Source of the DNA: a virus
Virus record (IMG/VR): IMGVR_UViG_3300020109_000040
Span: 1 to 45,515 of that record
Length of the DNA stretch: 45,515 bases
Strand: one strand, 5' to 3'
Shown here: one piece after another, positions 3,273-43,842 of the stretch
How positions within the stretch are numbered: position 1 is the first letter of the stretch
How the letters are laid out: the number at the start of each line of letters is the position of its first letter
Notes under the pieces: generated by a model
What the model was told of the DNA's origin: nothing
What the model saw: the letters and a program-made list of their open reading frames with translations, nothing else
Databases searched by the model: none
Program-made: the position numbers and the translations under genes

Positions 3273-3472
3273 TGGAGTGGCAGGACATCGCCAGCGCGCC
3301 GAAGGATGGGACGCGAGTGCTTCTGTTCGCGCCAACGCGCGCATTCCCAGAGGCAATTATCGTTGGTTGGTACGGCGTTCGTGGGTCTAGCTGGATGTCA
3401 GAACCAGGCATGTGGACCAGGAACCCCACCCACTGGCTACCCCTCCCCACACCCCCGGAGACGACGGCATGA
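3272..3472 (+). CDS. DUF551-like small protein
   Basis: Sixty-six residues. The start MEWQDIASAPKDGTRVLLF followed by a W-rich C-terminal half ending HWLPLPTPPE is the layout of DUF551 and related phage proteins (W-x-I-x-x-APxDG near the start, HWxPLPxPP near the end). Function unknown in the family. ATG at 3272 overlaps the RecT stop (TGATG). Confidence 0.65.
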   Translation: MEWQDIASAPKDGTRVLLFAPTRAFPEAIIVGWYGVRGSSWMSEPGMWTRNPTHWLPLPTPPETTA

Positions 3473-3753
3473 GCGAGGAAGCGGGAAAGGTGTGGAAATG
3501 CACCGTCACCGATGGACGGTTCGTGGAGGCTTGCTGGCCTTTGGAAGAGAACGTCCAAAACAACACGCCAGGGTTCAGCAAGGCCAAGGGCATCGCGGTC
3601 TGGAACTTGACCAACATGACCACGCACAACCCGTCGCGGCGATATTACGGGGTCAAAACCCCTGCCCATCCGAATGGCTTCCTGTTCAACTTCTGTCCGT
3701 TCTGCGGGGAGCGGATCGACGCGCCGTTCGTGGATAAGGAAGATGCCGCATGA
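3469..3753 (+). CDS. Hypothetical protein with C-terminal CxxC
   Basis: Ninety-four residues from the ATG overlapping the previous stop. The C-terminal half contains FNFCPFCGERID, a single CxxC knuckle that looks like half of a zinc ribbon; such short restriction-alleviation (Lar-like) or ribbon proteins are frequent in phage early operons. There is no second CxxC pair, though Cys 10 and Cys 21 could complete a site. Function not assigned. Confidence 0.55.
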   Translation: MSEEAGKVWKCTVTDGRFVEACWPLEENVQNNTPGFSKAKGIAVWNLTNMTTHNPSRRYYGVKTPAHPNGFLFNFCPFCGERIDAPFVDKEDAA

Positions 3754-4813: not shown

Positions 4814-5105
4814 CATTCTGAGCCTGTCAAAGAAGCTGGAGCGCGCTCGCCGCAATGGAACCGGCTTCCAGGTATCCGCCGAAGAGGTGGACACCATTTT
4901 CGAAAATGAGATCGCGGACGCCGTGTTCGCCGCCAAGTTGAGAAAGTTGAAGTCCGAGTGTCACGCGAAACCAGCGACCACATCTACGGCGAGTTCTGGC
5001 TCGATTTCCGGCGGGACGGAGCCGCCAAGGGAATATATCAGATCGCCCGGTACGCGCCCGGTTCTCGATCGGTCATCTATAGCAGCACTCGCACGAAATG
5101 CCTGA
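4806..5105 (+). CDS. Hypothetical protein overlapping integrase start
   Basis: Ninety-nine residues from the ATG at 4806. The first 55 residues look like a genuine helical protein (ILSLSKKLERARRNG, then SAEEVDTIFENEIADAVFAA). The rest runs in a different frame over the first 148 bases of the integrase and has the Ser/Thr/Pro-rich texture of an out-of-frame read. Possible explanations are a true long overlap or a later integrase start. Its place before int suggests a directionality factor, but no excisionase helix-turn-helix is evident. Confidence 0.45.
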   Translation: MGDILSLSKKLERARRNGTGFQVSAEEVDTIFENEIADAVFAAKLRKLKSECHAKPATTSTASSGSISGGTEPPREYIRSPGTRPVLDRSSIAALARNA

Positions 5106-6178
5106 CGACCGCGATCAAGGTCATAGAGGCCCACTATGAAACCGAGCGAGCAAGAGGCAAGCAGGACCCGCGCGAGGCGTTGGTCGTACCCATGCTGCTG
5201 CTCTACTGGGACGAGAAGGGCCGCAAGAACAAGAACCGCGATCAGACAGCCCGTAGCTTGCGGACCTTCATCGGCTTCCTGCTACAAGACCGCGTCGGAG
5301 CAAACGCCGTGGTGACGGACCTCGTGCCTACCGTGTTCGAACGCTTCCGCGAATGGAGGATGGGAAAGCACGGGTTCGACGTGGGCTGGGGCGGCAAGGA
5401 TTACGTCTATCAGTCGGATGGAGTGGCCGGCGACACGGTGGATCGCAATCTCAACGACATTCGGGCCGCGATCAATCATGCGCAGGACAACATGCGTATC
5501 CCCTACGCCCCGAAGGTACGCGCCGTCTCGCAGGTTCACCTCAACCCGTATCGGGAGCGCGTGCTGACAATCGAAGAACTGGGGCGGATGGCTTGGTACT
5601 GCGCCCACTTCAAACCGCTGTTCCGATTTTTCGCGTTGCAGCTTTGCACCAGCGTTCGGCCGGAAGCGGCGAAGGCGTTCAATCCAGTCACGCAATACGA
5701 CGATCGGTTCGGCCTGATCGATTTGCAGCCGGATCAGAAAGGTCGGACGAAAAAGCGGAATGCGATCATCCCGGCAATTCGGCCCATGCGTGTCGTTTTG
5801 AGACAATGGGCAAAAGAAGGATACGCGCCGGTCGCGTCGAACAAAACGGCATGGCGGAAAATGCGACGCGTGCTGAGGCTGTCTGACGACGTGTTCCCCA
5901 AGACGATTCGGCACACGGTCGCCACGTGGCTCTACAACGACCCTTCGGTGCCAGAGCGGCAGGTCAGCGAAATGCTGGGCCATGAAGGCAAGTTGTCGAG
6001 GACGACGCGCCTGTACGCCAAGTACGATCCGAACCGGATGGCAGAGGCTGTGCGGGCGCTGACCAGAATTTGGATCGCTGTGTCAGCAGAGGCGCGCCGT
6101 TACGGCGCTGACCATCTGCTGACCAACGAGCGAGACGCGGGTGGGAAATGGATTGCCCGCGAATCAGTGAAAGTGTAG
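4958..6178 (+). CDS. int: Tyrosine-family site-specific integrase
   Basis: A 406-residue tyrosine recombinase that would insert the phage at the adjacent tRNA-derived attP. The arm/core-binding part covers about residues 1-195. The catalytic part shows Arg 234 (CTSVRPEAA), Lys 315 and Arg 318 (PKTIRH), the GH at 341-342 (EMLGHEG) and nucleophile Tyr 353 (RLYAKY). The box II residue, often His, is Lys here; the family signature allows H/K. GTG 4958 has no strong ribosome site and overlaps the previous frame by 148 bases, so a later start is possible. The gene ends only 22 bases before the tRNA fragment, the usual arrangement. Confidence 0.93.
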   Translation: MSRETSDHIYGEFWLDFRRDGAAKGIYQIARYAPGSRSVIYSSTRTKCLTTAIKVIEAHYETERARGKQDPREALVVPMLLLYWDEKGRKNKNRDQTARSLRTFIGFLLQDRVGANAVVTDLVPTVFERFREWRMGKHGFDVGWGGKDYVYQSDGVAGDTVDRNLNDIRAAINHAQDNMRIPYAPKVRAVSQVHLNPYRERVLTIEELGRMAWYCAHFKPLFRFFALQLCTSVRPEAAKAFNPVTQYDDRFGLIDLQPDQKGRTKKRNAIIPAIRPMRVVLRQWAKEGYAPVASNKTAWRKMRRVLRLSDDVFPKTIRHTVATWLYNDPSVPERQVSEMLGHEGKLSRTTRLYAKYDPNRMAEAVRALTRIWIAVSAEARRYGADHLLTNERDAGGKWIARESVKV

Positions 6179-12823: not shown

Positions 12824-13733
12824 TGTTGAGACGCAGCAACCAGTTATCGAACGAATAGCTGGTCAGTGCGGTTATTGCGGGGAGTGTAAGATCGACCGTA
12901 AGCTCGCGCACCTTGGTCGCCCATGCCGCCTGAACGATGTACCCGGCCGGCGGCGGGGCCTTCGGGATCAATAGCAGCGGCGCGCCGATCGGGAGGTCGA
13001 AAGTGGTCGTGATCACGCGGCGACGGACGCCAGCGCTCACCGATAGCAGGTTGCTTTCCGAGAGCGTTACGGAACCGAGCAGGGTCGTGGCTGGTGCGCC
13101 AGCGGCGCCAACCGGCACGCCAAGGTTCAGCTTCGGCGCCCCCGCCGTGCCCGAAAGACTGGCGGTCGCCGGCGATCCCGCGGCGAGCGTCGTGACCGTC
13201 CCGACCGACAGGACAGGCGACACGCCATCGGCACCTTTCAGCGTAGCCAGCCATTGCGCCTCGGTCCCGCCGTAGCCGCCGTCTCGCGCTAACTGATAGG
13301 CGGACCTTCCCGCTGGCCCGACCAGCGTCGTCAGCCATTGCGCTTCCGTTCCACCGTAGCCCGCAGCGCGGGCAATCTGGTAAGCTGATGCCCCGTTCAC
13401 GCCGTCACGCGGCGCCGGCAAGGTGAAGTCGAAAACTGCGGCGCTTTCCGAGCCGCTGTTCACGACTTTTGGTGCCGACCCTACCGGGCCGGAGATGACC
13501 GCACCGGCCCTGATCGTCGCATCCTTGCCCTTCATCGCAGGATTCTGGGTCGGATCGCTGACGAGCAGCATCGAGAACGGCTGCCCCATCGGCATCACGC
13601 CGCGCGACAGCAGGACCAGCAGCGGTTCATCATAGGCGGGTGGGGTTAAGGAGGCGTGAAGCTTCGCCATCCCCTGCCCCGGATAGCTCATCCGAATGTA
13701 GATCCGCTGAAGGCGGGGCGTGGTTTCCCTCAT
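12816..13733 (-). CDS. Tail fibre-like protein with GYGGTEAQWL repeats
   Basis: A 305-residue protein. Residues about 78-110 resemble the beta-rich connector of tail fibres (VNSGSESAAVFDFTLPAPRDG). Two copies of a 21-residue unit, SAYQ(I/L)AR..GYGGTEAQWL.TL, lie at 116-136 and 144-165. Collagen-like GAP/GAPA turns follow near 195-215. These EAQWL modules are a known feature of fibre and fibre-adaptor proteins. The C-terminal 80 residues form a distinct beta domain, possibly receptor- or fibre-binding. Confidence 0.75.
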   Translation of the reverse strand: MRETTPRLQRIYIRMSYPGQGMAKLHASLTPPAYDEPLLVLLSRGVMPMGQPFSMLLVSDPTQNPAMKGKDATIRAGAVISGPVGSAPKVVNSGSESAAVFDFTLPAPRDGVNGASAYQIARAAGYGGTEAQWLTTLVGPAGRSAYQLARDGGYGGTEAQWLATLKGADGVSPVLSVGTVTTLAAGSPATASLSGTAGAPKLNLGVPVGAAGAPATTLLGSVTLSESNLLSVSAGVRRRVITTTFDLPIGAPLLLIPKAPPPAGYIVQAAWATKVRELTVDLTLPAITALTSYSFDNWLLRLNNG

Positions 13734-33710: not shown

Positions 33711-34238
33711 CTACGTGCGGAAATAATCCGCGAGAAGATCGAGGCAGTTGCGGACACTCGACACCAGCTGGTGATGCTTCTTCCCGCCATAGCGCGGGAG
33801 GCTGTCATGCAGCAGGAACCGATCGATCATGCCTCGGTCTGCTGCGGGGATAATACCGCGCACCAACCGCATACGACTTCGGGCGTCTGCCTGAGCACTG
33901 AGCCTGGGCAGTCCGTACCCGAAGTCGCCGGGGTTGGCCGCAGCGCCGATCCTTTCACCGTATCCCGCAGTCACCTTGGGTTCCAAGAAGCACCGCTCAT
34001 GCAGTGCTGAATATGCCTGCCCAGCCCGATGCTGCCTAAGGTCGATCATCTTAGCGCGATGCCAGCGATCTAGCGGTGGGGTTATCTTCCGCACCAACGG
34101 TGTCCGTTCGCCGGCCCGATCGATGATCCCGTTCGCCAGCTCATGATCCCCATGCGCCAGACGCTGCGGGGTCGCATCCTCACCGGTCGGGCATGGAACC
34201 CGCACCGGACGTACCTTGCGCTTCATTGCCTTACCCAT
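33711..34238 (-). CDS. DUF6456-like putative late regulator
   Basis: One hundred seventy-five residues. TPPLDRWHRAKMIDLRQHRAGQAYSALHERC, broken here into its parts, then DARSRMRLVRGIIPAADRGMIDRFLLHD and SVRNCLDLLADYF, recalls DUF6456 proteins, which are often annotated as regulators in alphaproteobacterial phages. The N-terminus is basic (KAMKRKVRPVRVP). It lies between the replication and packaging genes, where a late activator would be expected. The assignment rests on a loose pattern and context, so it is tentative. Confidence 0.5.
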   Translation of the reverse strand: MGKAMKRKVRPVRVPCPTGEDATPQRLAHGDHELANGIIDRAGERTPLVRKITPPLDRWHRAKMIDLRQHRAGQAYSALHERCFLEPKVTAGYGERIGAAANPGDFGYGLPRLSAQADARSRMRLVRGIIPAADRGMIDRFLLHDSLPRYGGKKHHQLVSSVRNCLDLLADYFRT

Positions 34239-34242
34239 CCCC

Positions 34243-34389
34243 CTACCCCTTTCGCAAATCGATGTAGCCCCGGGCGTGCTCCGGGCTGATGTTGTACTTG
34301 GCGGCCAGTTTCTCCGGATCGGCCTTGGCGAGCCGAGCGGGGTCGGTGGCCATCAGGGCGATCAGGAATTTGGTGAGCGGGGAGGTCAT
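34243..34389 (-). CDS. Small helical protein next to the repeat array
   Basis: A 48-residue frame with ATG 34389 and an excellent GGAGG site. TSPLTKFLIALMATDP, then ADPEKLAAKYNISPEHARGYI reads as a helical DNA-binding unit (LAAKYNIS-HARGYI resembles a helix-turn-helix). First gene downstream of the 9-mer array, on the same strand as the late genes. Could bind the array or act on the promoter there; that is inference. Confidence 0.6.
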   Translation of the reverse strand: MTSPLTKFLIALMATDPARLAKADPEKLAAKYNISPEHARGYIDLRKG

Positions 34390-34410
34390 GCTGGCCTCCT
34401 GGCAAAGGCC

Positions 34411-34687
34411 TGTCCACACCTCAGGGTGTCCACACCCCTATCGTTGAACAGGCGGCGGCTTTCAGACCCCCTATATACCCCGCTTTTACGACCTATCCCT
34501 TTATATCCATTATAGGGTGTGGACAGTGTGGACAGGGTAGTGAAAGCGCCGAAAAACTGCGGATTTTTGTGTCCACACCGGGGCGTGGTCAGACTGTGGA
34601 CAAGCGTGTGGACACAGTTTCTAAGTGCAACTGAACTGTCCACGGTGTCCACGGATCGGCCACGCTTCGGACTGGGGGGCGTGGACA
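34411..34687. repeat. ori: Iteron array, TGTCCACAC: probable replication origin
   Basis: About ten copies of a 9-mer TGTCCACAC/GTGTGGACA or one-to-two-base variants lie in 277 bases without genes. Exact copies: 34411, 34427, 34517, 34526 (tandem), 34570 and 34606. Variants: 34594 (CTGTGGACA), 34637 and 34646 (tandem TGTCCACGG) and 34680 (CGTGGACA). They are in both orientations. An AT-rich segment (about 34470-34515) lies within, as expected of an unwinding element. The repeat resembles but does not equal a DnaA box. It sits directly downstream of the VapE-type helicase gene. It could instead be a promoter control region. Confidence 0.65.
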
Positions 34688-34690
34688 GCA

Positions 34691-35881
34691 TCATTCTGCG
34701 ATCCTCCAGACCCGCATGCTCTTGCGCGTGCCGTCGTTCTGGCGCTCTTTCGCCCATGCCTGCGTCCAGCCAAGATCGGCCATGATCGCGGCAACCCGAT
34801 CCTTCGCGCGTTGATCCTGCCGCTCCGGGGCCATCTTCAGAATGTCGTATAGGATCTGCGCCGACGTATAGGTCAGGTGCGGGAAAACGGCGTTCGCGAT
34901 CGTGTCTTCCCAGATGTCGCCCTGCATCCGCGATAGCTGCTCGCGCTCGGCAAGGCGGGATTCGTCATCGGTCAGCCACCATTGCTCGCCTTCGCGGAAC
35001 CGGGTGACGGCTTCGGCCCATAGCTGGTCACGCTTCCGCTCCAGTCGGTCGAGATCGATCGCGGTGCAGGCGACTGGCCAGAAACGGCGGTTGCCCGTGC
35101 TGTCGGTGAGGTAGCCCTGACCAGCCTTCGGGTTGACCGACGCAGCCAGTACGCATTGCCGGGCATACTCGACGGTATTGCGCCCGTAGGACGGCCGGGT
35201 CTTGTCGACCTGCATTGTGATGATCGCCTTGACCAACTCGACGTCGGCCTTGCGCAGCGCGGACAGCTCGGCGAATTCGACGACCCATTTCCCAGTGATT
35301 TGCTCGACGAAGCGCTTATGGTCGCGCAGTTCGTTGACCATTTCGGTGAAGTAGGAAGCGCCGAACAGCAGGCGAAGCGCGGTCGACTTCTTCAGACCTT
35401 GCGGCCCCTCCAGCACCAGCATGGTGTCCATCTTGCACCCAGGCTGGTAGATGCGAGCAACAGCTCCGATCATCCATTTTGCACCGACCGCACGTTCGTA
35501 TGGCGTGTCAGGCGCACCGAAGAGGATATGCAGGAACCGGTCGAGCCGCTTGGTGCCATCCCAGCGGAGGCAGTCGAGATAGTCCCGCACTGGGTGATAT
35601 TTGTTGAACAGGGCGGTGCGATTGACCGCGGCCGGGATGTCCGTCTTACTCGGCGCGAAGCCCGCGTGCTCGATCATCGTCTGTATGTCGACGTAATCGG
35701 CATCGGTCAGCGGCTCGCCGTGCCATTCGACTTGACCGGTAAGTTCATTGTGCCGGATCTGCGTGCCGAGGCCGGGCAGGTTCCGCATATATTGCATCAG
35801 ATTGAAAAGGGTTTTCTTCTCCCCCTTCTGCCCGATCTGAAGTTTTCCGCGCCAAGCGTTGAGTGGGATCGGCTCAGCCAC
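34691..35881 (-). CDS. VapE/virulence-associated E-type helicase
   Basis: A 396-residue superfamily III-like ATPase from GTG 35881, overlapping the VRR-NUC stop. Walker A is LEGPQGLKKSTALRLLFG (GPQGLKKS at 159-166). Walker B-like WVVEFAEL follows, then a sensor Asn in VLAASVNP and the C-terminal DSTGNRRFWPVA signature typical of the VapE family. Together with the zinc/Toprim primase it would form the replication initiator-helicase pair. The longer upstream frame is Ser/Arg/Pro-rich and not credible. Normal length for the family. Confidence 0.92.
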   Translation of the reverse strand: MAEPIPLNAWRGKLQIGQKGEKKTLFNLMQYMRNLPGLGTQIRHNELTGQVEWHGEPLTDADYVDIQTMIEHAGFAPSKTDIPAAVNRTALFNKYHPVRDYLDCLRWDGTKRLDRFLHILFGAPDTPYERAVGAKWMIGAVARIYQPGCKMDTMLVLEGPQGLKKSTALRLLFGASYFTEMVNELRDHKRFVEQITGKWVVEFAELSALRKADVELVKAIITMQVDKTRPSYGRNTVEYARQCVLAASVNPKAGQGYLTDSTGNRRFWPVACTAIDLDRLERKRDQLWAEAVTRFREGEQWWLTDDESRLAEREQLSRMQGDIWEDTIANAVFPHLTYTSAQILYDILKMAPERQDQRAKDRVAAIMADLGWTQAWAKERQNDGTRKSMRVWRIAE

Positions 35882-36194
35882 GGATCGCCTCCAGCGTATG
35901 CGCGACCGCATCGTCACCGGTGCCATCGGTGGAGCGCGCGAGGATGTAGGTGCCGCCGGCCGCGCGGACTGCCGCCATGAAATCTTTCTGGCGACGGCGC
36001 TGCGGATCCTTGCCGACCTTGGCCTCGATGCCGAAGAACCGGCCACCGATGCAGGCCAGAATGTCGCTCGACCCGACGAGGCCGTAGCGGATCATGCGTC
36101 CGTCGACCTTGATCGCGCCGGTCTGATTGGACCACGCGAGACCGAGTTCGGACACGGCAATAAGCAGCCGGTTGACGAGATCGGTATGCGTCAT
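35874..36194 (-). CDS. VRR-NUC domain nuclease
   Basis: A 106-residue protein, the whole of which is a VRR-NUC fold: GSSDILACIGGRFFGIEAKVGKD with Asp 44, Glu 57 and Lys 59, and RRRQKDFMAAVRAAGG with Gln 69. These are the PD-(D/E)XK metal ligands. Stand-alone VRR-NUC nucleases cut branched DNA and are frequent in phage replication modules. ATG 36194 overlaps the helicase stop by 4 bases. Confidence 0.9.
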   Translation of the reverse strand: MTHTDLVNRLLIAVSELGLAWSNQTGAIKVDGRMIRYGLVGSSDILACIGGRFFGIEAKVGKDPQRRRQKDFMAAVRAAGGTYILARSTDGTGDDAVAHTLEAIRG

Positions 36195-37570
36195 GCGTTC
36201 GCCCTCCACTGCTCACGCTGGCGCATGATGTGACCGGCCCACGCCACCGGGTGCCGGTATCGACGCTGCTTGCCGAGCGCGATCAGGTCTTGGAGCGTGC
36301 GCGCGGACTTCAGCTCCTGCTTTTTCCGCGCGCGAATTGCGTCGAGGTCGACCACCTCCAAAGTGCCTTCGACCTGCTCGACCTCCCGGCTCTGCACTGG
36401 ATAGGCGTACATGCATGAAGGGCACGATGGCTGGGGCGCATGGACGCGGAAGCACTTCGGGCACTGCTTGACCGGCACTTCGGATTTCTGTCCGCGCTTC
36501 TTCTTCGGCCGATCTTCCAGCGACCATTCCCGATCGTCGTCGGGCAGGCCGTGCCGCATGGCATTGCCGGCATGGTCAAGAATGATGGCGTGCGGCTTGC
36601 CCTCAGCGGGACGAAGCGCACGCCCGATCTGCTGAAGGTGCAGCGACAGCGATTGCGTCGGGCGCAGAAGGATCACGGCCTCCACCGCTGGCACGTCGAA
36701 ACCCTCGCCGAACAGATCGGCATTGCTCAGGACTTGAAGCGCGCCTTCGGAGAAGTCGCGCACGATCGCGTCGCGCGCGCCGGTATCCATGCTGCCGTCA
36801 ACATGCGCCGCAGCAATGCCAGCAGCGCGGAATTGCGCGGCCACGTTCTGGCTATGCTCGACCGACACCGCGAAGACGATCGCCCGCTTGCCTGGTGCAA
36901 TGCGCTGATAGTGCTGCACAGCGTCGCCGACGATGGACGGCTTGTCCATCAGCTTCGAAAGCTGGTCGCGCTTGAAGTCGCCACCTTGCGTCGCGATTGC
37001 GGAGGTGTCAGCCGTCGACGGGGCGAACAGCTTGTAATCGCACAGCGCGCCGCGCTCCATCAGGTCCGCGACGCTAGGCCCCTGCACCATGCCGTCGAAC
37101 CATGCGCCCAGCCCGCGCCCGTCGAGCCGCCAAGGTGTCGCGGTCAAGCCGACGACCTGCGCGCGCGGGCAGGCTTCGTATATCTGCTGATACTGCGACG
37201 CGCCCATGTGGTGACATTCGTCGAAGATAATGAGATCGGGCGGTGGCAGCTTGCCGAGCCGGCGGGCCAGTGTCTGGACAGAGCCGACCTGCACCATGGC
37301 GTCGCGGTCGGTGATGTTTCCGCCCATGACGAGGCTATGAGGAATTTCCATCGACCAGAAGGTGCGGCTTGCTTGGAGGATGATTTCGCGCCGATGCACG
37401 ACCCACCAGCAGCGCCGGCCACGCTCGGCAGCGGTCTTGACCATGTACGCGCTGGTGACCGTCTTGCCGCCGCCGGTAGCGAGCTGCACCAGCACGGTAC
37501 GGTCGAGGCTTCGGAAGCGCTCGCGAATGTCGGTGATAAGCGCCTGCTGATAGGGTCGCAACTCGATCAT
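36191..37570 (-). CDS. DEAD/DEAH-box helicase
   Basis: A 459-residue superfamily II helicase. Motif I is ATGGGKT (31-37), motif II DECHH (117-121), motif III-like TATPW, and the second RecA-like domain has FAVSVEHSQNVAAQF, then LFGEGFDVPAVEAVI and QIGRALRPAEGK (motif VI). Near residues 375-400 a CPKC...CPSC knuckle follows, adding a zinc-binding tail. Related to the RAD3/UvsW-like helicases common in phage replication blocks; probably restarts or processes forks. ATGA overlap with both neighbours. Confidence 0.93.
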   Translation of the reverse strand: MIELRPYQQALITDIRERFRSLDRTVLVQLATGGGKTVTSAYMVKTAAERGRRCWWVVHRREIILQASRTFWSMEIPHSLVMGGNITDRDAMVQVGSVQTLARRLGKLPPPDLIIFDECHHMGASQYQQIYEACPRAQVVGLTATPWRLDGRGLGAWFDGMVQGPSVADLMERGALCDYKLFAPSTADTSAIATQGGDFKRDQLSKLMDKPSIVGDAVQHYQRIAPGKRAIVFAVSVEHSQNVAAQFRAAGIAAAHVDGSMDTGARDAIVRDFSEGALQVLSNADLFGEGFDVPAVEAVILLRPTQSLSLHLQQIGRALRPAEGKPHAIILDHAGNAMRHGLPDDDREWSLEDRPKKKRGQKSEVPVKQCPKCFRVHAPQPSCPSCMYAYPVQSREVEQVEGTLEVVDLDAIRARKKQELKSARTLQDLIALGKQRRYRHPVAWAGHIMRQREQWRANA

Positions 37571-38067
37571 GAGCGCACCCGCTTATTCTTCTGCTGTTCC
37601 GAGAGCGTAGCCCACCGGCAGTTTCCGGGTTCGTAGTTGCCATTCACATCAATCCGGTCGAGAGTCATTCTCTCTGGCCGCTCACCCATATCTGCAAGGA
37701 AGGTTGGAAAATCTTTCCATCGTTCGCAAAGTTTGATGCCGCGACCGCCATAGCTGTCCCAGTCTGTATTGTTGGGGTTGGTCGTCCGCTGAACCATGGC
37801 AGTCCATGATTTATGCGTTCGGCTTTGCGAGCCTACCCGGTTATGTCCGTGGCGAAGATTGCGCGCTGTCGCTGAAGCGGACAAAAGTTCACGCCGCAAG
37901 CACCCACACGATTGAGATTTCCCAGACCTAAGCGAACGCGAAGTCGTGGCGGTATGATTTCCGCAATCGCATAGACAATTCCAAAGCCGGAAATTTCCAC
38001 GACGGCCAATATCTTCGATAGCCGTAAGCCGCCCGAAGCGCTCCCCGGTAATATTAACAGCTCTCAT
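37567..38067 (-). CDS. AP2/HNH-type homing-like endonuclease
   Basis: One hundred sixty-six residues. N-terminal part: RFGRLTAIEDIGRRG and a NCLCDCGN...SCGC zinc-ribbon-like segment of the AP2-adjacent type (WNCLCDCG, SGKSQSCGCL). C-terminal part: TLDRIDVNGNYEPGNCRWATL, the HNH-like signature of phage homing endonucleases. The DNA here is visibly less GC-rich than its neighbours, consistent with recent arrival. It interrupts an otherwise continuous primase-helicase pair. Activity and target are unknown. Confidence 0.82.
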   Translation of the reverse strand: MRAVNITGERFGRLTAIEDIGRRGNFRLWNCLCDCGNHTATTSRSLRSGKSQSCGCLRRELLSASATARNLRHGHNRVGSQSRTHKSWTAMVQRTTNPNNTDWDSYGGRGIKLCERWKDFPTFLADMGERPERMTLDRIDVNGNYEPGNCRWATLSEQQKNKRVRS

Positions 38068-38975
38068 GCCGTCACCTCGTCAGCCCAATCGTGCCCGATC
38101 GTTTCGGGGATCTTGACCGTCACGGCGCGCGGGTCGCGTCCGGTCGCGAGGCGATGCGCGAGCGCATAGGCCGCAGCAGCACCGCCGAATTTCTGGTCGT
38201 TGTCCCCGAACACGACGACGGTGCGTGTGCCCGCAGGCGGCTGCCACTTCGACAGCATCGTGGAATTGATCGCGGCCCAAACCGGGATGCCGAACAGCTT
38301 GCTGGCGGCGAGCGCCGTCTCGATGCCTTCGGCGATGCCGAGCGTCACAGCAGGACCGGTAAGGCGGATTGCGGCGCCGTCCGGGATCGCGCCAGGCATC
38401 GTCGCGCGCGGTTCGTCAAGGTCAGCTTTGCCGTTCGGCCCGAGAAACGTCCGGTGTAGCGATGCAGGTTTGCCGTCCGTGTCCGCGATCATCGCTACCA
38501 TGCAAGGGTGCGTGCTGCCGGCCGGAGCGCGGGTGCTGGCGACGTAGCGCAGGACACGCGGGTTAGCCGGCAGCGGCAGTCGGCGGGATGCAAGGTAGCG
38601 GGCGATTGCGTCACCGGGTGCCGCAGGCGTTCCAGAACGCCATAGGTCATTCAGCAGTCGCGTCCGCTGGGCGGCATCGAGCGCCGGCTTCGGCGCGACG
38701 AAATCGACATTGCCGACGATCTTGTCGATTTCACCGGCGGCGGTGCGGAAGTCCCAGCCATTCAGCTTCTGGACTAGATCCATGCCGGTGCCAGCGCCGC
38801 ATCCGGAGCAGAAGTATGTGCCCTTCCCTTCCTTGTCGTCGAAGCGGAAGCGATCCTTGCCGCCGCACATCGGGCAAGCGGTATGCTTGCCAGACAGGAA
38901 GCGCGTCTCGACGCCCAGACAGGCGAGGATGCCGCGCCATTTGCCGTGCGCCTGATCGATCGTACGCGGCCGCAT
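38064..38975 (-). CDS. DNA primase with zinc-binding and Toprim domains
   Basis: A 303-residue primase. N-terminal zinc-binding site: HTACPMCGG (Cys 34, 37) with FCSGCGAG (Cys 56, 59), the gp4/primase zinc finger. C-terminal Toprim: GIAEGIETALAAS (Glu 216, 220) and VVVFGDND (Asp 258, 260) as metal ligands. It would make primers for phage replication and works with the VapE helicase. A conserved middle (RYLASRRLPLPANPRVLRY, then HRTFLGPNGKA) matches the DUF7146-containing phage primases. Confidence 0.92.
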   Translation of the reverse strand: MRPRTIDQAHGKWRGILACLGVETRFLSGKHTACPMCGGKDRFRFDDKEGKGTYFCSGCGAGTGMDLVQKLNGWDFRTAAGEIDKIVGNVDFVAPKPALDAAQRTRLLNDLWRSGTPAAPGDAIARYLASRRLPLPANPRVLRYVASTRAPAGSTHPCMVAMIADTDGKPASLHRTFLGPNGKADLDEPRATMPGAIPDGAAIRLTGPAVTLGIAEGIETALAASKLFGIPVWAAINSTMLSKWQPPAGTRTVVVFGDNDQKFGGAAAAYALAHRLATGRDPRAVTVKIPETIGHDWADEVTA

Positions 38976-40524: not shown

Positions 40525-41790
40525 TCAGGCGGCCGCCTCGAAGAGATTGCCTTGGGCGTCAGCGGCGACTGCCTCCGAGGCGACACGAGCCTCGGCTGCT
40601 GTGATGCGCGCTCTGGCGATGGGCAGGTATTCAGCGGTCAGCTCGCAGCCGACGAACTGCCGTCCTTCGAGGATCGCAGCCTTCCCGGTCGAGCCGGATC
40701 CGGCGAATGGATCAAGGACGGCACCGCCAACCGGAGTGACGAGGCGGACAAGCCAACGCATCAGCGCTTCGGGCTTCACTGTTGGGTGCGTGTTCCGGTA
40801 TTGAGTCTCTCGACCAGCGCTGAGGCTGGACGCTTGACCGCTTTCACCGTTACCGGTCTGGAACTGGACGAACGACTGCGGTTCGAATTGACCGAGTCCC
40901 TCGTCGCGGTCGGCCTTGCTGGCCTTTGCGCAGTAGAAGAACCGGGCGGCGCTGCCGCTGTCGTTCCGCCGCTCGCCAGGGCGCATTTGGAATCCGACCG
41001 TTCCAGCGTTCTCGCTATTGGCGCTCGCCTCGCCCGGTCGCCCCCGCAGCAAACTGCCGTAGACATTCTGTGCGCCACGGGGCGCCGAGGAACTGCTGGC
41101 GCCCGCGATCTGGCCGGGGGCATCAGGGAAGGCAGAGAGCACTTCGTCGCTGCCGTCGTGGATGACATTGGCAGGCCAACGCCCCTTACCGTAATCGACA
41201 GCGGTAGTAGCGCCGATGTGGCCGTAAATGCCGTTGGTGCCGGCCTGCCGGCCGTTGTTCCGCGCGCCGGTATCGCCAATCCGCGACGCATCGATATTCA
41301 GCTTGCCGGTGCCGAACTGCGCAACATTCGCCAGCGCCGATCCGATCAGCGGCTTACGCGCAAGAACGATCGGCTCGTGTGCGGGCTTCAGGCAGGTGCC
41401 GCGACCTTCATCGTCCAAGCCACCCTTCGGAAAACCGCTGCCATAGATCCACATGATCTGGTCGCGGATTTCGAAGCCCGCATCCTCGATCGCGCAGGCC
41501 ATACGGTGATAGGTGCGCGACCCGGAGAACGCGACGAGCCAGCCACCCGGCTTGAGAACGCGAAGGGCTTCGGCCCACATGGCCGGATCGAAGGCTACGC
41601 CCGACCCGTCCCACTCCATACCCATGAAGCCCTTCATCACCTTGCCTTGAGTGGCAGGCGACCGACCGCCGGGGCGGGCCGAAGTCAGCTCATACGGCGG
41701 GTCGGTGACGATGCTGTCGACAGACGCGTCGCCCATCGCCGCCATCAGCGTCCGGCAATCGCCGTGCCGAAGGTTCCACGCGCCGCTCAT
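40525..41790 (-). CDS. DNA adenine/cytosine-N4 methyltransferase
   Basis: A 421-residue N6-adenine or N4-cytosine methyltransferase. Catalytic DPPY at 30-33 precedes the AdoMet motif DPFAGSGST at 360-368, the beta-class order. Between them is a 200-residue insert rich in Gly, Ser and Asn, probably the target-recognition region. It may protect phage DNA from host restriction or modify the genome for packaging. No partner restriction gene is nearby, so it is an orphan. Target sequence cannot be read from the protein. Confidence 0.92.
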   Translation of the reverse strand: MSGAWNLRHGDCRTLMAAMGDASVDSIVTDPPYELTSARPGGRSPATQGKVMKGFMGMEWDGSGVAFDPAMWAEALRVLKPGGWLVAFSGSRTYHRMACAIEDAGFEIRDQIMWIYGSGFPKGGLDDEGRGTCLKPAHEPIVLARKPLIGSALANVAQFGTGKLNIDASRIGDTGARNNGRQAGTNGIYGHIGATTAVDYGKGRWPANVIHDGSDEVLSAFPDAPGQIAGASSSSAPRGAQNVYGSLLRGRPGEASANSENAGTVGFQMRPGERRNDSGSAARFFYCAKASKADRDEGLGQFEPQSFVQFQTGNGESGQASSLSAGRETQYRNTHPTVKPEALMRWLVRLVTPVGGAVLDPFAGSGSTGKAAILEGRQFVGCELTAEYLPIARARITAAEARVASEAVAADAQGNLFEAAA

Positions 41791-42946: not shown

Positions 42947-43164
42947 GCCGACACCTGCTGTTCCGATGTCCCGGCGGCGATGATGCTATCGACGTCAACG
43001 CGGATCTTCGCAGCGCGCGCGGCCAGCTTCAAATGAGCCAGTCGCGACGCCGGAATGCCGTTCTTACGCCAGCTATGCACCGTCGAGAGCGGAATGCTTG
43101 TGAGCTTAGCGACGGCGGTCGTGCCACCAATCGCGTCGATGATCTGGTTCGCTACCGTCTGCAT
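42943..43164 (-). CDS. cro: Cro-like repressor
   Basis: A 73-residue helix-turn-helix protein. IIDAIGGTTAVAKLTSIPLSTVHSWRKNGIP is the YdaS/Cro type: A-x-L-x-x-I-x-x-S-T-V-H-S-W-R-K-N-G-I-P with the recognition helix at TVHSWRKNG. ATG 43164 is used; longer frame upstream is Cys/Arg-rich and crosses the promoter. Divergent from the S24 repressor with shared operators, so it should repress the repressor promoter and limit its own expression, as in lambda. Confidence 0.85.
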   Translation of the reverse strand: MQTVANQIIDAIGGTTAVAKLTSIPLSTVHSWRKNGIPASRLAHLKLAARAAKIRVDVDSIIAAGTSEQQVSA

Positions 43165-43171
43165 GAACCGC

Positions 43172-43200
43172 AATATGCGACAATCGCAGACGCATCGCAA
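43172..43200 (-). promoter_or_regulatory. cro promoter
   Basis: On the minus strand TTGCGA (43200-43195), 17-base spacer, CATATT (43177-43172) gives a sigma70-like promoter 8 bases before the cro start codon region. The perfect operator at 43176-43188 overlaps the spacer and -10 box, so bound repressor would block it. Match to consensus is moderate. Confidence 0.55.
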
Positions 43201-43237
43201 GCACTAATCTGCGATTTTCGAAGTTGCGATATTCGGA
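43176..43237. promoter_or_regulatory. Operators in the cro-repressor space
   Basis: One perfect TGCGA-N3-TCGCA palindrome at 43176-43188 (TGCGACAATCGCA) and two copies with one mismatched arm base each at 43210-43222 (right arm TCGAA) and 43225-43237 (right arm TCGGA). Two more perfect copies lie at the early promoter. A graded set of three sites between divergent repressor genes parallels lambda OR. Confidence 0.7.
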
Positions 43238-43257
43238 GAAGCGGGCTTCACGGAAGC

Positions 43258-43842
43258 ATGACCCCGGCTGAAATTCGCGCCGAGCTAGACGCTCGCAATC
43301 TGTCGATCCGCGATCTGGCGGACATGACCGGCATTGATGAGAACAAGCTGACCAAATCGCTCGGCAAGCAGGGTCGCCGTTTCCAGGTTGAGGAAATGCG
43401 GCGGATTGAGGAAGCACTCGCGCCAGAACAGGGCGATCACGAGCCCATCCGCACGATCCCCTTGCTTGGTGACGTTCCCGCAGGCGCCTTCCAGCCCGGC
43501 GAGCAGAAGGGCGGCAAGCGCGTCGCGGTGTCCGACCCGGACACTCCGGCGCGCGCCTATGCGTTGCGGGTGAAGGGGGACTCGATGGACCTTATCGTCA
43601 ACGACGGCGACACCTTAGTCATTGATCCAGACGACAAAGTGCTGTGGCCGGGGCGGCGCTATGTGATCCGAACGGATGACGGCCAGACAACCTTTAAGGA
43701 ATTTCAGGCTGACCCGGCGCGCCTAGTGCCCTGTTCCAGCAACCCGGAACATCGCGAGATAATGATCGGCAGCGAGCCAATCACGATCGAAGGCCGAGTG
43801 TTTTCGTACTCGATGCGGGATGTCCCACGCCGGAACGGATAA
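43258..43842 (+). CDS. cI: CI-like S24 (LexA-type) repressor
   Basis: A 194-residue prophage repressor. Residues 1-55 hold a helix-turn-helix (IRDLADMTGIDENKLTKSL). The C-terminal S24 domain shows the Ala 75-Gly 76 cleavage site (GDVPAGAFQPG), the nucleophile Ser 109 (VKGDSMDLI) and the Lys 147 base (TTFKEF). The spacings (33 and 38 residues) match LexA/CI closely, so RecA-stimulated self-cleavage after DNA damage is expected. ATG 43258 has GGAAG upstream. It should bind the TGCGA-N3-TCGCA operators at both promoters. Confidence 0.92.
   Translation: MTPAEIRAELDARNLSIRDLADMTGIDENKLTKSLGKQGRRFQVEEMRRIEEALAPEQGDHEPIRTIPLLGDVPAGAFQPGEQKGGKRVAVSDPDTPARAYALRVKGDSMDLIVNDGDTLVIDPDDKVLWPGRRYVIRTDDGQTTFKEFQADPARLVPCSSNPEHREIMIGSEPITIEGRVFSYSMRDVPRRNG

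Follow-up and report, generated by a model that had tools for sequence, protein, structure and literature searches.

An Iteron Array Downstream of a VapE Helicase Gene as the Likely Origin of Replication in a Temperate HK97-Like Phage

Comparison with related phages and with known replicons indicated that positions 34411 to 34687 of the window (the whole analysed stretch of 45,515 nucleotides, from a 45.5-kb IMG/VR virus record) are very probably the site at which a temperate HK97-like phage, presumably of a sphingomonad, initiates theta-type replication, with VapE as a self-loading initiator helicase. The original prediction had called this segment an undescribed origin. The assignment as an origin was strongly supported by the comparison, and the origin is undescribed for this particular sequence, but its kind is already known from SaPI/PICI elements and from phage Sfi21. 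In the proposed mechanism, VapE would bind the 9-bp units of the array via its C-terminal winged helix, and by analogy with SaPI Rep, two VapE oligomers would assemble on the sets of units which flank an AT-rich core. The core would then melt, VapE would load as the helicase, and the Toprim primase of the phage would start synthesis.

Genomic Context

The window codes for an integrase (4958–6178) and an S24-type repressor (43033–43842), which together with an HK97-type capsid and protease, portal, TerL/TerS and tape measure identify the virus as a temperate siphovirus; tail genes are also present. PICIs lack structural and packaging genes of their own and depend on a helper phage, which does not apply to the virus in the window. 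Alignment of close relatives against genome contigs (7 loci) revealed that Sphingomonas abaci and S. parapaucimobilis carry close relatives of VapE, so that a sphingomonad is the likely host.

On the minus strand, the genes are ordered primase, HNH-like, SF2 helicase, endonuclease-like, VapE, array, 48-aa ORF, unknown ORF, HNH, TerS and TerL. The genes surrounding the array are the following.

38064–38975, minus strand: Toprim/zinc-ribbon DNA primase, separate from the helicase
36191–37570, minus strand: SF2 DEAD/ResIII helicase
35874–36209, minus strand: endonuclease-like ORF (phrog_93), overlapping the VapE start
34691–36046, minus strand: VapE-like SF3/AAA+ helicase (PF05272; Pfam 9e-77), the proposed initiator
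34243–34389, minus strand: 48-aa ORF directly beyond the array, with a strong AGGAGG-like ribosome site

For the 48-aa ORF, with the sequence MTSPLTKFLIALMATDPARLAKADPEKLAAKYNISPEHARGYIDLRKG, no family match was obtained. It is conserved at 44–68% in L004, L007, L008, L058, L146 and L154, and its product may be a small helix-turn-helix protein. The early operon is headed by a gene for an N6/N4 DNA methyltransferase (40525–41790, minus strand).

Sequence and Layout of the Array

A gene-free cluster of repeats in both orientations, partly arranged as 9-bp tandems, had been predicted, and this description was confirmed. The array is composed of the following elements.

34411–34687, both orientations: whole iteron array, with 10 exact copies of TGTCCAC and 1 degenerate copy (TGACCAC)
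34411–34435, plus strand: right set, distal to VapE, with two TGTCCACAC units at 34411 and 34427
34436–34516: AT-rich core without repeats, the proposed DNA-unwinding element, containing most of the 60% A+T 50-mer at 34471–34520
34517–34534, minus strand: 9-bp tandem TGTCCACACTGTCCACAC at the border of the AT core, the most conserved element among relatives
34570–34654: left set, with units at 34570 (plus), 34585 (minus, degenerate), 34596 (minus), 34608 (minus), 34637 (plus) and 34646 (plus), the last two forming the second 9-bp tandem
34681–34687, minus strand: last unit, adjoining the VapE stop codon

The ten exact copies of TGTCCAC compare with three in the other 45.2 kb of the window. With the density outside the array taken as the expectation, the Poisson probability of at least 10 copies is about 1e-24, and among 2000 dinucleotide-shuffled versions of the segment no 7-mer reached more than 4 copies; chance is thereby excluded as an explanation. 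The degenerate eleventh unit reads GTGGTCA at 34585–34591. The longer unit TGTCCACAC occurs exactly at 34411 and 34427 (plus), 34517 and 34526 (minus), 34570 (plus) and 34606 (minus), and with one mismatch at 34594 and 34679 (both minus). In the window as a whole, its count at up to one mismatch is not unusual (12, with 7.1 expected), and it is the clustering which is exceptional. Exact 9-bp tandems are found at 34517–34534 (TGTCCACAC twice) and at 34637–34654 (TGTCCACGG twice).

As predicted, an AT-rich stretch lies amid the repeats. Positions 34471–34520 contain 60% A+T compared to 37% in the neighbourhood, which places them among the 2–7 most AT-rich 50-mers of the window, and the core is flanked by nine units on one side and two on the other. 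The helicase gene indeed ends at the array, with the first unit 3 bp past the VapE stop codon at 34691. A comparison to Rfam gave no match.

VapE as the Proposed Initiator

In phages, VapE is annotated very frequently, as "virulence-associated" or "DNA primase/helicase", and 947 phage records were found to match. The true start of VapE in the window is probably the GTG at 35878, giving a protein of 395 aa, rather than the one at 36046, since the alignments of relatives begin there and residues 1–61 of the long ORF were modelled with a pLDDT below 50. In the AlphaFold model (mean pLDDT 78, with 83–91 for most of the C-terminal part), a helicase core is followed by a C-terminal winged helix of H-H-H-S-S topology at residues 378–449. 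The VapE profile matched the SaPI initiator PriRep1 (7pds) with E=4.3e-83, and the fold was similar to the PriRep1-dsDNA structure 7pds with a TM of 0.72 (1e-26). By profile and fold, VapE is homologous to the SaPI initiator helicase Rep, and the winged helix of the model would be its C-terminal DNA-binding domain.

Arrays in Close Relatives

In the VapE phages nearest to the window (60–90% identity), the position of the array is unchanged. The original prediction would have been contradicted by the loss of the repeat from relatives with the same replication genes; instead, an array was identified at the equivalent site in L004–L008, L058, L146 and L151. The right set is kept as two inverted units in L004–L008, L146 and L151, and the invariant heart among the nearest relatives consists of CTGTCYACACTGTCYACAC with a TAT/TAA-rich stretch after it.

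The unit itself is spelled differently among these phages. TGTCCAC is shared by the window and L006, while TGTCTAC is the unit in L007, L008 and L151, predominates in L004 and L146 and is mixed with others in L005; L058 contains TGACCAC. Between relatives, the letters switch in most copies of an array at once, which is how sites bound by a single protein with a shifting specificity behave. Among the close relatives, WA is found as the wing residues together with TGTCCAC, and VG, IG or YG together with TGTCTAC or mixed arrays. With few independent changes available, this pairing of wing residues and unit spelling is suggestive only.

The same relatives bear on a host DnaA-dependent origin, in which the unit would be a high-GC variant of the DnaA box. 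The actinobacterial DnaA box, for comparison, is TTGTCCACA, and GTGTCCACA differs at only two positions from the consensus TTWTNCACA. However, no exact TTWTNCACA is present anywhere in the window, in line with the earlier statement that the repeat is not a standard DnaA box, and the orthologous arrays change wholesale to TGTCTAC, TGACCAC or TGACTAC, away from DnaA boxes, at a constant position. A DnaA-dependent origin is therefore extremely unlikely.

Several proteins had been listed as candidates for binding the repeat. The 48-aa ORF was not detected by alignment in L005, L006 and L151, all of which keep the array, and in the Pseudomonas phage U5 region an array is present without a neighbouring SF2 helicase. 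Both observations favour VapE, which would most likely be the protein bound to the array. An operator for a transcription regulator, acting in a late-gene switch or in autoregulation and possibly recognised by the 48-aa protein, is very unlikely in view of the same relatives, even though the 48-aa ORF and the late genes come immediately after the array and sites in both orientations are common among operators. Eleven sites flanking an AT core also exceed what is usual for operators, and no sigma-70-like promoter above chance was identified in 34100–34900, a weak argument given that the consensus may not suit the host. It is possible that the array serves both replication and regulation.

Distribution of Arrays among VapE Loci

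The association was examined in 88 loci with VapE relatives of 34–100% identity, each of about 13 kb. The 500 bp past the VapE stop obtained the top repeat score of the locus in 49 of the 88 and ranked in the top 5% in 57. As in the window, where the array lies directly 3' of VapE, the most repeat-dense 350 bp begins between −100 and +400 bp from the VapE stop in 56 of 88 relatives, with only a few expected. In about 32 of the 88 loci an adjacent array is absent, and owing to these exceptions and to a lineage with a displaced array, the rule that the array always adjoins VapE was dropped.

Units were extracted from 64 arrays. They differ by lineage (TGTCTAC, TGACTAC, TGTCCCAC, TGTCACCAC, TGGAACAAC, TGTACCCAG, GTTACCACC, TTGGCAACC and others) but are homogeneous within an array, and have a loose TGTnnnAC(C) appearance in common, the commonest spacing of units on the same strand being 9 bp. 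The AT-richest 50-mer is located inside the array in 57 of the 64, and in 51 it is flanked by at least two units on both sides. For 56 non-redundant arrays, the similarity of the units correlated with the similarity of the VapE C-terminus after removal of the core (partial Spearman 0.16; 0 of 1000 permutations), and the reverse partial, for the core with the C-terminus removed, was not significant (0.06; 63 of 1000 permutations). This suggests that the unit tracks the C-terminal winged-helix domain of VapE more than its ATPase core, the effect being small and relatedness being only partly removed.

GC skew had been proposed as a further check. A mild step was identified at the array in the window, but over 53 loci no general change at the array was found (Wilcoxon p=0.53), and GC skew was dropped as support for an origin. 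In IMG/VR, the raw count of the 18-bp tandem was rejected as evidence for enrichment, with 44 matches compared to 39 for the reversed pattern. The difference was confined to the local density, with at least 7 local copies at 16 of the 44 matches versus 1 of the 39 for the reversed pattern.

Displaced Arrays and Arrays with Other Helicases

In the L021/L029/L038 lineage, the sole TGTCYAC array is located about 11–12 kb from VapE and close to the terminase, which points either to a movable origin or to another role for that array. A TGTCYAC array with TerL and a DNA-methyltransferase-like gene nearby was also observed in L218 (G008:1-14500) at 12909–13186, in L219 at 3381–3661 and in L021 near 648. 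In these three, VapE lies about 11–12 kb away and is without a downstream array of its own; the array may be a displaced origin or have another function.

Further TGTCYAC arrays were found in L041, L022, L052, L016 and L030, in which the helicase is of the DUF5906/D5 type and not VapE. The array is immediately downstream of this helicase in L016 and L030, and 1.7–2.5 kb off in L041, L022 and L052. In L022/L032 (IMGVR_UViG_3300044806_000029), the same tandem occurs near both contig ends, which suggests that the genome is terminally redundant or circular and was cut close to the array.

The arrays close to terminase genes raise the question of a packaging site, pac or cos-flanking, to which the small subunit of the terminase would bind. 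The replication and packaging modules of the window lie on either side of the array, with the TerS gene about 1.2 kb further on, and a TGTCYAC array adjoins terminase genes in L010/L029/L034/L038/L050 and L041/L052. Nevertheless, an HNH gene and two further ORFs separate the array from TerS in the window, the StAB and Javan405 arrays follow VapE with the terminase about 8 kb off or on the opposite arm of the record, and the unit type goes with the VapE C-terminus. In addition, phage Sfi21 has its cos site (40722–40736) annotated separately from its origin (34487–34784). A packaging site is considered very unlikely.

Comparison with Known Origins

For SaPI and PICI elements, the origin is located immediately 3' of the rep/initiator gene and consists of an AT-rich region flanked by two sets of iterons, and pri-rep-ori segments of PICIs were shown to replicate plasmids (PMC6092414). 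SaPI Rep recognises the origin iterons via its C-terminal domain (PMC7581432). The Pri-Rep-ori replicon (PriRep1, 7pds) shares with the window the homologous initiator helicase, the repeats 3' of its gene and their division into two sets by an AT-rich region (PMC6092414, PMC7581432). In contrast to these satellites, the window represents a complete temperate tailed phage with a separate Toprim primase and its own 9-bp unit. The homology of VapE to PriRep1, combined with the location of SaPI origins just 3' of rep, makes it very probable that the array belongs, as a new member from a phage, to the "rep-then-iterons" replicons of the SaPI/PICI and Sfi21 type. SCCmec Cch2 likewise binds repeats 3' of its own gene via its C-terminal domain (PMC7581432), and its putative origin (AAGTG iterons) resembles the window in that an initiator-type helicase gene is directly followed by repeats on its 3' side. 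Cch2 differs in belonging to the SaPI5 Rep/D5_N branch and in having only three 5-nt iterons.

Streptococcus thermophilus phage Sfi21 served as a positive control. Its record (NC_000872) annotates a non-coding "origin of replication" of 302 bp at 34487–34784, right after a DUF5906/Pox_D5 helicase, and among 1616 windows the blind repeat statistic placed this origin first with 7-mers and second with 8-mers, with 11 copies of GTAAC compared to 0.7 expected. Both origins comprise about 300 bp of non-coding sequence after an SF3/D5-type helicase gene, with about 11 short units in both orientations around an AT core; the tandems in Sfi21 are of 8 bp. The differences are that the Sfi21 helicase is DUF5906/Pox_D5 and not VapE, that the unit is (A)GTAAC and that the host is of low GC content. 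Iteron plasmids and the lambda ori also have repeats, bound by the initiator in those systems, next to an AT-rich unwinding region. They differ from the window in that their iterons are longer and their RepA- or O-type initiators are not helicases and require loading of host DnaB.

Implications

In the literature searched, no origin was found that had been ascribed to the VapE phages collectively. As far as can be judged from sequence comparison, the new part is the breadth of the arrangement across VapE phages and the lineage-specific re-spelling of the unit. The comparison predicts origin, unit and binding protein for dozens of uncultured phages.

As a tentative proposal, for which the chances are somewhat below even, VapE initiators and their arrays may make up a large family whose origin specificities have diversified naturally and are mutually orthogonal. 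A common scaffold, roughly TGTnnnACC at a pitch of 9 bp, would change its spelling in all copies once a few residues of the winged helix are altered. An example is TGTCCAC with WA versus TGTCTAC with VG, IG or YG, in VapE proteins which are 75–90% identical to the one in the window. If such orthogonal specificities exist, they could be driven by replicon exclusion or by origin-targeting by rivals, the latter being documented by PLE and the Odn nuclease (PMC8263062). The way in which wing residues and repeat letters vary in pairs would offer a direct route to a protein–DNA recognition code and to orthogonal mini-replicons for sphingomonads.
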